DNA of 35,267 nucleotides from Candidatus Poribacteria bacterium (GTDB taxonomy: Bacteria > Poribacteria > WGA-4E > WGA-3G): NCBI GenBank assembly GCA_026702755.1, contig JAPPBX010000100.1:1-35267 (forward strand), written 5' to 3'. Under the pieces are notes generated by a model. The model was given only the letters and a program-made list of their open reading frames with translations. It made no database searches and had not been told where the DNA came from. Positions 31,564-35,267 of the stretch are shown here, one piece after another. How positions within the stretch are numbered: position 1 is the stretch's first letter; every line of letters begins with the position of its first letter. The translations under genes and the position numbers were made by a program.

Positions 31564-31722
31564 TTATGTCAAGCGAAACATTTAGAAGCATCGCGATATA
31601 TTTTTCATATTTTTTTCTCGTCATGCAACCTTTGGCTCTTTAAAACGCGTCATTAATAGTAACAGCAGTGCGGTGGTCGCGCGTTAAAACCGTGCAGCTG
31701 TATCCTACGTAGGAGAAATTTG
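31564..31722 (+). promoter_or_regulatory. Conserved leader of the sigma-propeller gene, copy 1
   Basis: This 159-base upstream region aligns with 35076-35236, upstream of the second copy. Conservation is weak at first and almost complete from 31646 (CGTCATTAATAGTAACAGCAGT) onward, including GTCGCGCGTTAAAA and the ribosome binding site. GTAAC and GCGTT are spaced as in ECF-type promoters, so autoregulation by the sigma factor is possible. TCCTACGTAGGA (31703-31714), a 12-base palindrome, overlaps the AGGAG ribosome binding site. Confidence 0.5.
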
Positions 31723-34680
31723 ATGAAAACCGAAGATGCACAACTCGTACACCGCTTTTTGTCAGGGGACGAGAATGCCTTCACTCTTCTGGTGAAAAAA
31801 CACCAGAAGAGCATTCACGCGCTCGTATGGCGGAAGGTTGACGATTTCCATATTGCCGAGGAACTCACACAGGATACTTTCCTCAAGGCATACCAGAAAC
31901 TTGGAACGTTGAAGAATCCGAACCAGTTCGCTGGATGGCTCTATGTAATTGCCGATCGGCTTTGTATCGCCTGGCACCGAAAGCAGAAGCCACCGATGGA
32001 ATCCTTGGAAACCACGAGTGGAGAGGAGATAGAAGAATCATCTTATCGGCATTATGAAGATGAACAACGCAATGAGGCATCCGCTGAATACCGTCGCGGA
32101 TACATCAGCAGTCTCTTGGAAAAGCTACCGGAGAGCGAACGTACAGTCGTAACACTCCACTACCTTGGAGAAATGACATGCCAAGCGATTAGCGAATTCT
32201 TAGGTGTGTCTCCAAACACGGTTAAGAGCCGTCTCCAACGCGCACGGAATCGTCTAAAGGAGCATGAAAACATGATTCAAGAAACACTCGGAAGCGTACA
32301 TCTACCCACTACTTTTACCGAAAATATTATGCAGCGAATCGCTACCATAAAACCGGTATCCCCTACAAACAGTAAGCCACTTATACCGTGGGCAATCTCA
32401 GCCACAACAGCCATTTTTATCTTTCTCATAATGGGTGTGGGTTCACAACACCTCGCTCGTTTTCAGAAACCCTACAACCTGAACGCACAATCAGAAGCAA
32501 CCGTTGAAATTGTTGATGCGCCCATCGTTCTTGATACACAGGCAAAGCCGGATTTACGGAATCAAGCGGGACGTTTCGATAGCACCGGTAAAAGCAGCAG
32601 TGCCGGTCCCCAAGTTTCCGAACCCGTGCTGCTTGCCGCTGCACAGATAGAAAAGGAGACGCGTCCGTCAACAAAACGACAGTGGGTACAAGCAAGTGGT
32701 CCAAAAGAAAGGATCTCAGTGTCGAGTTTATTGGTAAGTTCATGGGGGGATGTCTATGCGATTTCGCGAATCGGTATCTACAGATTACCACCAGATGCAC
32801 CTGCCTGGACACTCGCGAGTCCACTCCCCTCAGAGGCTTCTGTAGACAACTACGGAATACCAATAGCAGAACGAAACGATACGCTCTATCTCGTCTTTCC
32901 TAACGGCGTGTTTGCGTCAAAAGATAGAGGCGAAACATGGAGAAAACTTGGCGAGCGTCCAACAGGACGCGTTAGGGGACTCGTGATAACGGATGATGCA
33001 TTGTACCTTGCGTTTCGAGATGAAGGCATTTTCCGATCTACAGATGCGGGTAACCAGTGGACACCGCTCAACAATGAAGTGGCAGATAGCGTGGTTTTCT
33101 CAGTCGCTGCTATTGAAAACACTGTGTTTATCGGGACAAACAAGGGACTCTACCGCTTGCATTCAGGGACATGTGAGAAATTGTTGATAGATACCACGAA
33201 AGCCATCCGTTCTTTGTCAGTCTCTGGAAATAATCTCTATGTCGGGACAGGACGCGATCTTTCTCAATTGGGCACCGAGGAAGGGAGGACAGCGCACCTT
33301 GAAAAACTTATGGAGGAATTTAAGAGCAACACCAATGTCAGAAAATGGGAGATTTTCCACTCAACCGATTTGGGCGATTCATGGACCGATATAACACCGA
33401 CAAGCAATTCGTACATGATGAAAGCTTCATCGAATGCTAAAGTCTTGGCAACCGGAAATGCTGTTCTGGCGTTAAGTATGATAAGCTTCCGATCAACCGA
33501 TGGCGGAAAAACGTGGACAGAATTTGGCTTCAATCCGGATCCAATGACCTCGAGTATATTTCCTGCCGTAGCAGTGGATGAGAATATTATCTTCAAAAGC
33601 ACACCCTCTGAACTTACACGCTCAACCGATGGTGGCGAATCGTGGCATCCATTTACGGATGGCATTGTGAGTAGTAACATATTCAACTTAATGAGGTTTA
33701 AGGACGAACTTTATACGAGCACATCCACCGGTGTTTTCAAATCCACCGATAGCAGCGAGTCGTGGAAAAAACTCACTTTGAGTTCTGATGAACTTACACT
33801 AAAACCGATAGAGGAAGACATCCGTACTAACCGATTAATTTCTCCAAAATTAGCAATTGTTGACGACGTACTTTATGGTGCTGCACCTGTTTTAGTCCCC
33901 AAGCATGAATTACGCATCTTCCGCCTCTCAGTGAATGGAAATGTGTTAGTTCCTATCCAAGGGATACCTGCCCTTGAAGGAGCTTCTTCCATCACAGATA
34001 TAAAGGATTGGACAGATATAAAGGATTTGATAGATAAAATGTTCCAATTTGAACGATTTCCCACCGTGTTTGCAGTCAGCGGCGAAACATTCTATGCGGA
34101 CTACATGAAGCAGCTTTTCCGGTGGAAACGCGGTGAATCGGAATGGTTTAACACCGGACTCGTAGATGCAGATAAAAGTGATAATTCTATGAGAGATTTC
34201 AAACTTGCTGTTTCAGAGGAGATGAGAGATTTCAAACTTGCTGTTTCAGAGGAGACCGTCTATGCCGGAAAACGCGATGGAAGTCTTTTTCAATCGTTTG
34301 ACAGTGGTAGCACATGGAACGATTTAACTTCACATCTGCCACTGCGTTTTGAGCATTTCAATGATATAATCTTTGCGGGTTCAATAGTATACGTTGCTAC
34401 GGACGCTGGCGTTTTGACATCAGAAGACGGTGAACATTGGCATGCAATCACCGATAAAGTAGGAAAGCACACTCTCATTGATCAGATAGCTGTGGATACC
34501 GCAACTGTTTACGGTGCTGGTGACGAAGGCATCTATCGATTGAATAATAGCAAAGAATGGAAAAAGATCTCACCAGAAGTGCCAGATAGTGTCAAGTCAC
34601 TGGTTATTAAGGACGATAGACTTTATATCGTCACCAAACATCGCGGGATGTTCTACGTTCCTCTTGAAGAAGAACGGTAG
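31723..34680 (+). CDS. ECF sigma factor fused to membrane-anchored BNR propeller
   Basis: A 985-residue chimera. Residues 13-82 form sigma70 region 2 (VRKVDDFHIAEELTQDTFLKAYQ style) and 125-178 region 4 with its helix-turn-helix (LGVSPNTVKSRLQRARNRL). A single membrane segment (221-240) follows. The rest, residues about 310-985, is a predicted extracytoplasmic propeller of BNR/Asp-box repeats with repeated S-T-D-x-G-x-x-W motifs (RSTDAGNQW, HSTDLGDSW, RSTDGGKTW, RSTDGGESW, KSTDSSESW, QSFDSGSTW). The layout suggests that the outer domain senses a ligand and the sigma factor is held at the membrane until released; that is inference. A perfect 33-base tandem duplication lies at 34189-34254. The ATG at 31723 is 7 bases after AGGAG. 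A second copy begins at 35237. Confidence 0.9.
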   Translation: MKTEDAQLVHRFLSGDENAFTLLVKKHQKSIHALVWRKVDDFHIAEELTQDTFLKAYQKLGTLKNPNQFAGWLYVIADRLCIAWHRKQKPPMESLETTSGEEIEESSYRHYEDEQRNEASAEYRRGYISSLLEKLPESERTVVTLHYLGEMTCQAISEFLGVSPNTVKSRLQRARNRLKEHENMIQETLGSVHLPTTFTENIMQRIATIKPVSPTNSKPLIPWAISATTAIFIFLIMGVGSQHLARFQKPYNLNAQSEATVEIVDAPIVLDTQAKPDLRNQAGRFDSTGKSSSAGPQVSEPVLLAAAQIEKETRPSTKRQWVQASGPKERISVSSLLVSSWGDVYAISRIGIYRLPPDAPAWTLASPLPSEASVDNYGIPIAERNDTLYLVFPNGVFASKDRGETWRKLGERPTGRVRGLVITDDALYLAFRDEGIFRSTDAGNQWTPLNNEVADSVVFSVAAIENTVFIGTNKGLYRLHSGTCEKLLIDTTKAIRSLSVSGNNLYVGTGRDLSQLGTEEGRTAHLEKLMEEFKSNTNVRKWEIFHSTDLGDSWTDITPTSNSYMMKASSNAKVLATGNAVLALSMISFRSTDGGKTWTEFGFNPDPMTSSIFPAVAVDENIIFKSTPSELTRSTDGGESWHPFTDGIVSSNIFNLMRFKDELYTSTSTGVFKSTDSSESWKKLTLSSDELTLKPIEEDIRTNRLISPKLAIVDDVLYGAAPVLVPKHELRIFRLSVNGNVLVPIQGIPALEGASSITDIKDWTDIKDLIDKMFQFERFPTVFAVSGETFYADYMKQLFRWKRGESEWFNTGLVDADKSDNSMRDFKLAVSEEMRDFKLAVSEETVYAGKRDGSLFQSFDSGSTWNDLTSHLPLRFEHFNDIIFAGSIVYVATDAGVLTSEDGEHWHAITDKVGKHTLIDQIAVDTATVYGAGDEGIYRLNNSKEWKKISPEVPDSVKSLVIKDDRLYIVTKHRGMFYVPLEEER
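34189..34254 (+). repeat. Perfect 33-bp in-frame tandem duplication
   Basis: Bases 34189-34221 and 34222-34254 are identical. The repeat encodes MRDFKLAVSEE twice, adding 11 residues to the propeller and preserving the frame. The lack of any base difference indicates a recent event. Confidence 0.95.
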
Positions 34681-34785
34681 GCAAGCGTATCGTGATGGTG
34701 TTAATTTCTGAATTACCAAGTGATTAACTATGCCTAAAAAGTAAATCAAAACGAAAAACAAAAAATTAAGTTTTATTTTGCAGTT

Positions 34786-34833
34786 ACAGCCAAACTATTG
34801 TGGGAATTGAAGGTCCCTTGTATGTTTGGCTGT
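34786..34833 (+). terminator. Candidate terminator of the sigma-propeller gene
   Basis: ACAGCCAAAC (34786-34795) and GTTTGGCTGT (34824-34833) form a perfect 10-bp stem about 105 bases after the stop codon. The loop is long and only TTTC follows, so this is tentative. Confidence 0.4.
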
Positions 34834-34938
34834 TTCGCGTTCTGCTGAAAAATCCGTTTTCTCGTCAACAAGAGTTTTTATAGTAAAGCCCGAAAATATG
34901 TTTACAGGTCGTCAGGGAACAAACACCCTACCGCCGCT

Positions 34939-34959
34939 GGCGAGGATTGTATCCTCGCC
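34939..34959. repeat. GCGAG-type palindromic element
   Basis: GGCGAGGAT-TGT-ATCCTCGCC is a perfect 9-bp stem with a three-base loop. It has the same GCGAG/TGT/CTCGC outline as the tandem repeat at 8255-8322. Confidence 0.6.
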
Positions 34960-35075
34960 CTTGCGTTAGTGTATAGGTAATTATGGGTTTACTATTAATT
35001 CAGCGTTAAAATGCGAGTTCGATGTAAAAAATAGCGTCGTGTTCATCAAAAACAAATGGTAAATTTCCTTTTTCG

Positions 35076-35236
35076 TTATGTCAAGAGACGCGTTTTAGCG
35101 TAGTTGTGATATAATTTCTTCAACTTTTTTGTTCTTATGCACCATTCTGTCTTTTAAATCGCGTCATTAATAGTAACAGCAGTCCGATCGTCGCGCGTTA
35201 AAATCACGCTGTTGTATTCTACGTAGGAGAAATTTG
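35076..35236 (+). promoter_or_regulatory. Conserved leader, copy 2
   Basis: The counterpart of 31564-31722. From 35162 the sequence is nearly identical to copy 1, including CGTCATTAATAGTAACAGCAGT, GTCGCGCGTTAAAA, TACGTAGGAG and the start codon. The palindrome over the ribosome binding site has one change (TTCTACGTAGGA, 35217-35228). Confidence 0.5.
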
Positions 35237-35267
35237 ATGAAAACCGAAGATGCACAACTCGTACACC
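35237..35267 (+). CDS. Start of second sigma-propeller gene copy, cut by window end
   Basis: Only 31 bases are inside the window. They are identical to the first 31 bases of the gene at 31723, encoding MKTEDAQLVH, and are preceded by the same ribosome binding site and leader. This is therefore the beginning of a tandem paralogue of the ECF sigma gene; whether it also carries a membrane segment and propeller lies beyond the window. Confidence 0.75.
   Translation, partial: MKTEDAQLVH

Follow-up and report, generated by a model that had tools for sequence, protein, structure and literature searches.

Sigma factors are usually held off by separate anti-sigma proteins. Single chains that combine a sigma domain with a membrane part and a regulatory part are described for the extracytoplasmic function (ECF) groups ECF52, ECF53 and ECF48 and for IutY (ECF243) (PMC8999054, PMC5826349). 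Here we analyse a gene of Candidatus Poribacteria whose product unites an ECF sigma domain, a membrane helix and an Asp-box propeller, and which belongs to a large paralogous family of its genome. The gene lies on contig JAPPBX010000100.1 (C100) of assembly GCA_026702755.1 (5.84 Mb in 126 contigs; a sponge-associated lineage), and the window referred to throughout is this entire contig of 35,267 nucleotides (nt).

ECF52, with SCO4117 of Streptomyces, has the same succession of ECF domain, membrane region and extracytoplasmic carbohydrate-binding part in one chain, and for it autoregulation has been suggested and proteolytic release proposed (PMC5826349). The window protein shares with it a membrane helix followed by an extracytoplasmic sensor and carries, as ECF sigma factors do, sigma regions 2 and 4 only. 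It differs in that ECF52 has a zinc-finger between sigma part and membrane (PMC5826349), whereas the linker of the poribacterial family (residues 182-220) is devoid of cysteine in all 36 membrane-anchored members; in that ECF52, according to the account in PMC5826349, is reported in Actinobacteria only, whereas the best 80 relatives of our family in a named genome collection are all from Candidatus Poribacteria, some of them chromosome-level records; and in its propeller sensors and about 50 copies. IutY of Pseudomonas putida is likewise an ECF sigma factor with a fused membrane part; it is activated by proteolysis that includes RseP, the fused part being described as a membrane-bound anti-sigma factor of cell-surface signalling (PMC8999054). 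By contrast, Pfam finds no anti-sigma domain in the window protein, and there is no FecR match up to E 1. The fused anti-sigma domain of IutY and ECF243 is FecR-like. In ECF57 the sigma part is joined to propeller repeats in WD40-like C-terminal extensions, which are described as protein-interaction parts, and two conserved cysteines link sigma2 and sigma4 (PMC8999054); in the poribacterial family, however, a membrane helix stands between sigma part and propeller, and only C81 is conserved at ≥90% (50 members). BT4663 and BT4673 of Bacteroides have an extracytoplasmic multi-propeller sensor as well but a hybrid two-component output instead of sigma, and the GH74 xyloglucanases, best fold matches to the propeller, differ as secreted enzymes, the comparison being one of fold. 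Membership in ECF52, ECF243 and ECF57 thus fails on a tested feature each, and the protein would work like ECF52 and IutY. A sequence-only reading of the window had regarded sensor, anchor and sigma factor as normally separate proteins that are merged here; the merger stands, but it is not unprecedented, since ECF52/53/48 and IutY are single-chain.

Poribacteria are reported to be rich in WD40 domains and to have eukaryote-like repeat proteins that carry membrane helices (PMC3909097). In the accessible text of that paper the words "sigma" and "ECF" are absent, as is "sigma" from that of PMC8546597, and the Poribacteria literature searched, judged from paper listings, holds no description of sigma-sensor fusions. 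So far as we searched, the absence of a zinc-finger, the exchange of sensors, the size of the family and the promoter that its members have in common appear to be new; the family may have an earlier ECF group number.

A conserved single chain

The window gene is one open frame from ATG 31723 with no internal stop up to 34680. Its C-terminal part matches Sortilin-Vps10, PSII_BNR and BNR in Pfam and contains six strict Asp-boxes (S-x-D-x-G-x-x-W), and residues 221-239 alone exceed the hydropathy threshold. The architecture that had been proposed from the DNA, with sigma regions 2 and 4, one membrane segment and some 660 residues of Asp-box propeller in a single chain, is therefore confirmed. The chain is conserved across species: the orthologues in other Poribacteria (L176, L178, L179, L181, L187, L177 and L186) are each one frame, and so the fusion is no sequencing or assembly error.

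At the level of the domain, the sigma part can be aligned from end to end with E. coli RpoE, P. aeruginosa SigH and B. subtilis SigW, and it is, as judged from substitution ratios, under strong purifying selection. In seven orthologue comparisons with the window gene, the ratio of nonsynonymous to synonymous substitution (dN/dS) is 0.03-0.10 for the sigma domain and 0.19-0.33 for the propeller (0.08 and 0.05 compared to 0.285 and 0.25 for L176 and L178, respectively), values that are rough because synonymous distances are near saturation. The close pair L178/L179, with dS of about 0.15-0.24 in sigma domain and propeller, gives 0.046 and 0.215. A loss of promoter-recognition residues, raised in the sequence-only reading as a potential objection, is contradicted indirectly by the alignment and the selection.

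An AlphaFold model (11 sequences; mean predicted local distance difference test score, pLDDT, of 66) is confident over the propeller; no contact between sigma part and propeller is deduced from it, because the sigma part and residues 190-317 are modelled at low confidence. In Foldseek the propeller is matched best by GH74 xyloglucanases (E about 1e-22, target-normalised template modelling (TM) score about 0.6) and also by Bacteroides hybrid two-component sensor domains, the latter in local superposition only (TM about 0.2-0.3). A glycan is a reasonable guess for the ligand.

One sigma module, many C-terminal parts

Searched with the first 266 residues of the window protein, the genome yields 50 family modules that are 46-82% identical to the window's own. 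A sharp gap separates them from the next-best matches, 25 ordinary ECF sigma factors with at most 37% identity; the partial matches C70:3 and C99:5113, cut by a contig end or frameshift, are left out of the 50. Frames of at least 400 amino acids (aa) occur in 47 of the members and one membrane segment at about residues 220-245 in 36, while 70 of 73 relatives from other genomes have one hydrophobic segment. An expanding family had been suggested from a second copy at 35237 with the same start, and both points hold, the first beyond what was proposed. The second copy agrees with the first in all 31 of its coding bases within the window, it has a predicted promoter of its own, and over the leader and first codons (coding bases included) 137 of 172 alignment columns agree; the copy is broken off at 35267 because the window is the whole contig. 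Contig C70 opens inside a further family copy, at residue 173. A decayed member (L167, around G000:C102:20339-20703) retains the promoter and remnants of region 4, and from a new start it encodes linker, helix and C-terminal part without sigma.

The C-terminal parts were Pfam-scanned for 30 members plus the window protein. Behind the helix are BNR, WD40, Kelch, two-component-regulator propeller, PD40 and GHL15-like parts; helix-less members have AhpC/TSA redoxin (3), a weak TPR match, BNR, an M61 peptidase or a complete three-domain DnaN clamp, and several C-termini matched no Pfam family. WD40 is present in 4/30, the window protein having BNR. In the sigma-domain tree the WD40 carriers fall in two separate supported groups and the redoxin carriers in two, and Kelch carriers adjoin a regulator-propeller carrier and a redoxin carrier. 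From this scatter of sensor types it follows that the C-terminal parts were swapped several times while the sigma module was kept; the bacterium seems to add sensors by exchanging one protein end. Unfused AhpC/TSA, WD40 and PD40 proteins (L173:6408-7793, L068:12152-14164 and L069:4066-5109) are also found under a family-type promoter. Because the fused parts of family members are of these same kinds, the common promoter suggests that fusions arose through recombination at it or that sigma was lost at a later stage.

Of the helix-less members, one joins the sigma module to an M61 peptidase-like protein (L085:4154-7120; G000:C102:12153), and another is an in-frame fusion with an entire DnaN sliding clamp (L093:3571-5286; G000:C24:5570-7285). 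Full-length matches to ECF-DnaN occur in 26/37 genomes of the genus (65-100% identity), in 6 more at 41-44% and in 3/24 other genomes; separate dnaN genes exist as well, and the family promoter precedes 8/9 loci examined (of 12, 3 being missed by the start filter).

The module is a general possession of the host's family. A phylum survey of 84 genomes (E 1e-50), which scored 39 candidates per genome and whose copy counts are lower bounds (≥), detects it in 58/58 genomes of that family and in 68/84 overall. Two genera of the family are strongly expanded and a third (g11) has 1-2 copies; sister families have fewer members, many of them also long frames, and long family frames occur in single-contig genomes too. 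Within the genus, 24 genomes (the own one among them) have 18 to 83 copies each at E 1e-30, counts that take in some ordinary ECFs (own genome: 58 compared to 50 by the identity gap).

A shared promoter motif and its predicted regulon

Family members are preceded by a common motif, TTATGCAaccTTT and then CGTC 17 (15-17) nt past GCAACC, for short TGCAAC-17-CGTC. ECF-type promoters, from which ECF sigma factors often express their own genes too, consist of an AAC-containing -35 plus CGTC at -10, and the motif is a predicted promoter of this type. Built by iteration on the own genome and searched up to 400 nt upstream, it is present before 39/50 members; the 37/2000 control segments that have it were taken at these loci, and real sites are among them. 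When each member was dropped together with its close relatives, 37/39 still scored above the best of 20 shuffles. Applied to other genomes, which had no part in its training, the motif reaches a score of at least 15 in 61/73 relatives compared to 2/315 control segments; 7 of the 80 relatives had too little upstream sequence, and L239, with a wrong start (length 0), is kept in the counts.

Divergence of the -10 box follows sigma domain distance (Mantel r 0.365; 0/2000 permutations as high), whereas for the -35 box r is -0.03. Among pairs below 65% sigma identity, for which r is given without permutation test, the -10 box has 0.249, the spacer 0.019 and the downstream sequence 0.044. Such covariation of the -10 box with the sigma domain fits each sigma factor reading its own promoter.

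Searched through the whole genome with at most 2 mismatches allowed, a fixed pattern has 59 matches, compared to 5 for the reversed pattern; 27 of the 59 lie before family members (cut copy included) and 32 elsewhere. The non-member sites listed number 33 (30 of the 32 pattern matches and 3 from the motif scan), and of the 32 examined only one overlaps a frame of at least 150 aa. A Pfam family could be assigned to 15/20 proteins downstream of non-member sites. Encoded there are an HtrA-like protease, MoxR, two ABC ATPases, an ABC-2 permease, MacB and STAS; AhpC/TSA, WD40, PD40, an ordinary ECF sigma factor and adenosine deaminase; and a C-type lectin, a 3-keto-disaccharide hydrolase and Big_5. 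Together they look like a predicted envelope and transport regulon. Two similar STAS proteins (L173:5752-6090 and L171:63-401, the first Pfam-scanned) have the same promoter type and represent a possible partner-switch input.

Proposed mechanism and alternatives

Seven zinc-finger anti-sigma frames were found in the genome (one below cut-off), each within 1 kb of an ordinary ECF; within 4 kb of family members there is none of the seven (0/7), in a search limited to the zinc-finger kind. With no zinc-finger anti-sigma adjacent and no cysteine in the linker, the sigma factor is apparently controlled by its own chain. A zinc-finger anti-sigma hidden in the linker was looked for and not found, there being no H...C..C motif nearby and no Cys at 182-220. 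Residues 242-290, just past the helix, are conserved even among members with unrelated sensors. A profile of residues 184-290 has 38 strong matches in the own genome, all in family genes, and a stand-alone ancestor of the module of linker, helix and juxtamembrane segment was sought there with no strong match. Three weak matches lack sigma, one being the relic C102:20339 and two lying directly downstream of intact members. The latter (G000:C31:30381-32513, L067, and the G000:C94:21160 region, L088) are sigma-free propeller proteins with similar linker and helix, possibly partners or decoys.

On balance we think it somewhat more likely than not that the window protein is a one-component transmembrane sigma factor. 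The N-terminal ECF domain would be tethered at the inner membrane face by the single helix, and the Asp-box propeller would do the sensing outside. Its signal is probably a glycan or some other ligand from envelope or host and would be relayed via the conserved juxtamembrane segment. The most likely means is regulated proteolysis, with a first cut in this segment and a second, by site-2 protease, in the membrane, whereupon the released sigma domain would bind RNA polymerase and direct it to the TGCAAC-17-CGTC promoters of its own gene and of a local envelope regulon. The core is common to about 50 paralogues, which differ in the sensor. Several observations weigh against this reading. No membrane segment is present in 14/50 members (three of them short or broken), so that tethering is not essential to the family, and 11/50 lack the promoter motif within 400 nt. 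Lysine and arginine flanking the helix show only a modest excess before it (221 compared to 164 after). No cleavage site was identified in the chain; a site-2 protease gene is present in the genome, which is weak evidence because the gene is universal (14/14 control genomes). If close pairs are kept in the comparison, the sequence downstream of the -10 box tracks sigma distance as well (r 0.192), and dN/dS of the juxtamembrane segment in L178/L179 is 0.28, from few changes, and not under the propeller's 0.215.

Release by proteolysis might be dispensable if the sigma factor were active while tethered, through conformational change or propeller dimerisation in the manner of ToxR/CadC-type membrane-bound regulators. 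Such action would agree with the conserved helix position and juxtamembrane segment, and members with soluble C-termini (redoxin, DnaN, M61) can have no need of release from a membrane, so that in them sigma may be acted on by the fused domain itself. We hold it to be unlikely all the same, in that an initiating sigma factor has to reach dispersed promoters. The characterised single-chain IutY, moreover, is reported to be activated by proteolysis (PMC8999054). Rather unlikely, too, in our view is the making of two products, the full-length sigma-sensor and a sigma-free membrane sensor from a start at codon 184, which may be a relic of an ancestral operon whose sigma gene and membrane partner gene became fused. 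Three residues past the sigma domain there is an in-frame ATG behind AAGGAG, and 6/6 orthologues examined have ATG or GTG at the same place, likewise behind a similar site. Start-like sites at codons 178-192 occur in 16/48 members compared to 135/2123 control windows, and by a stricter match in 12/48 compared to 26/2123. C102:20339, its sigma frame lost, starts at the matching place behind AAGGAG; the sigma-free companions directly after intact members (C31, C94) would be in keeping with a second product, and in the 14 ECF-DnaN loci examined GGAG stands ahead of the native ATG of DnaN, which suggests that this fusion has an internal start as well. Against it, 32/48 members are without such a site, and the peptide KKEE ahead of the start by itself yields AAGGAGG-like codons. 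Of the two events that the sequence-only reading named as separating sigma from propeller, frameshift is dismissed by the one-frame orthologues, and internal initiation is possible but would add a sigma-free sensor while the full-length product remains.

That the sigma domain is an inactive passenger of promoter duplication, the propeller alone being of importance, could be argued from the duplicated promoter and sigma module ahead of very different C-terminal parts. The idea is very improbable and is rejected on selection: dN/dS of the sigma domain is below that of the propeller in 7/7 orthologue comparisons, and the domain aligns full-length with RpoE, SigH and SigW. An artefact of assembly or frameshift, for which one could cite a window ending within a repeat copy and an assembly in 126 contigs, has practically negligible probability and is refuted by the same one-frame architecture in orthologues of independent assemblies and by long family frames in single-contig genomes.

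A wider interpretation, offered tentatively, is that of a many-to-one plug-in network in which one chassis of sigma domain, anchor and juxtamembrane segment, duplicated dozens of times together with its promoter, serves interchangeable sensors at closely related promoters, with no anti-sigmas, and is joined also to cytoplasmic proteins including DnaN. A whole family of sponge-associated lineages appears to manage without zinc-finger anti-sigmas, and in the genome analysed here one chassis serves about 50 sensors. Phage T4 uses its clamp, together with the sigma factor gp55, to activate late transcription (PMC9690074), and ECF-DnaN would, if the plug-in interpretation is true, be a cellular counterpart of such clamp-coupled transcription. 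Should the promoter predictions hold, what an uncultured symbiont can sense, and its regulon, could be read directly from sequence, and synthetic biology would gain in the chassis a naturally occurring transmembrane sensor-sigma part that can be swapped.

Feature coordinates and gene neighbourhood

Table 1. Features of the single-chain gene and of the second copy in the window.
Feature	Position	Strand	Basis
-35-like box TCATGCAACCTTT of the family promoter	31621..31633	+	motif scan
-10-like box AACGCGTCATTAAT	31644..31657	+	CGTC at 31648, 17 nt past GCAACC
Ribosome-binding site AGGAG upstream of ATG 31723	31711..31715	+	sequence
Single-chain ECF sigma / membrane helix / Asp-box propeller protein, 985 aa	31723..34680	+	frame, Pfam
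Sigma-70 region 2, residues 23-89	31789..31989	+	PF04542, 3e-12
Sigma-70 region 4 (Sigma70_r4_2), residues 127-178	32101..32256	+	PF08281, 4e-16
Predicted cytoplasmic linker, residues 182-220; has neither Cys nor a zinc-binding anti-sigma motif	32266..32382	+	
Possible internal start ATG, codon 184, AAGGAG before it	32272..32274	+	
Single membrane helix, residues 221-239	32383..32439	+	hydropathy; model helix 224-237, low confidence
Conserved, predicted extracytoplasmic juxtamembrane segment, residues 242-290	32446..32592	+	RFQxPYSFxAxSExTVEIxDAPxVLDxxxKPxxRNQxG
Asp-box propeller region, residues 321-985, GH74 double-propeller-like	32683..34677	+	Pfam, model, fold search
Predicted promoter of the second tandem copy	35135..35171	+	
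Second copy, first 31 coding bases, ended by contig end	35237..35267	+	

To the left of the gene, on both strands, the window encodes MOSC, glucosamine-6-phosphate isomerase-like, GFO/IDH/MocA oxidoreductase, PhyH and laminin-G-like proteins.

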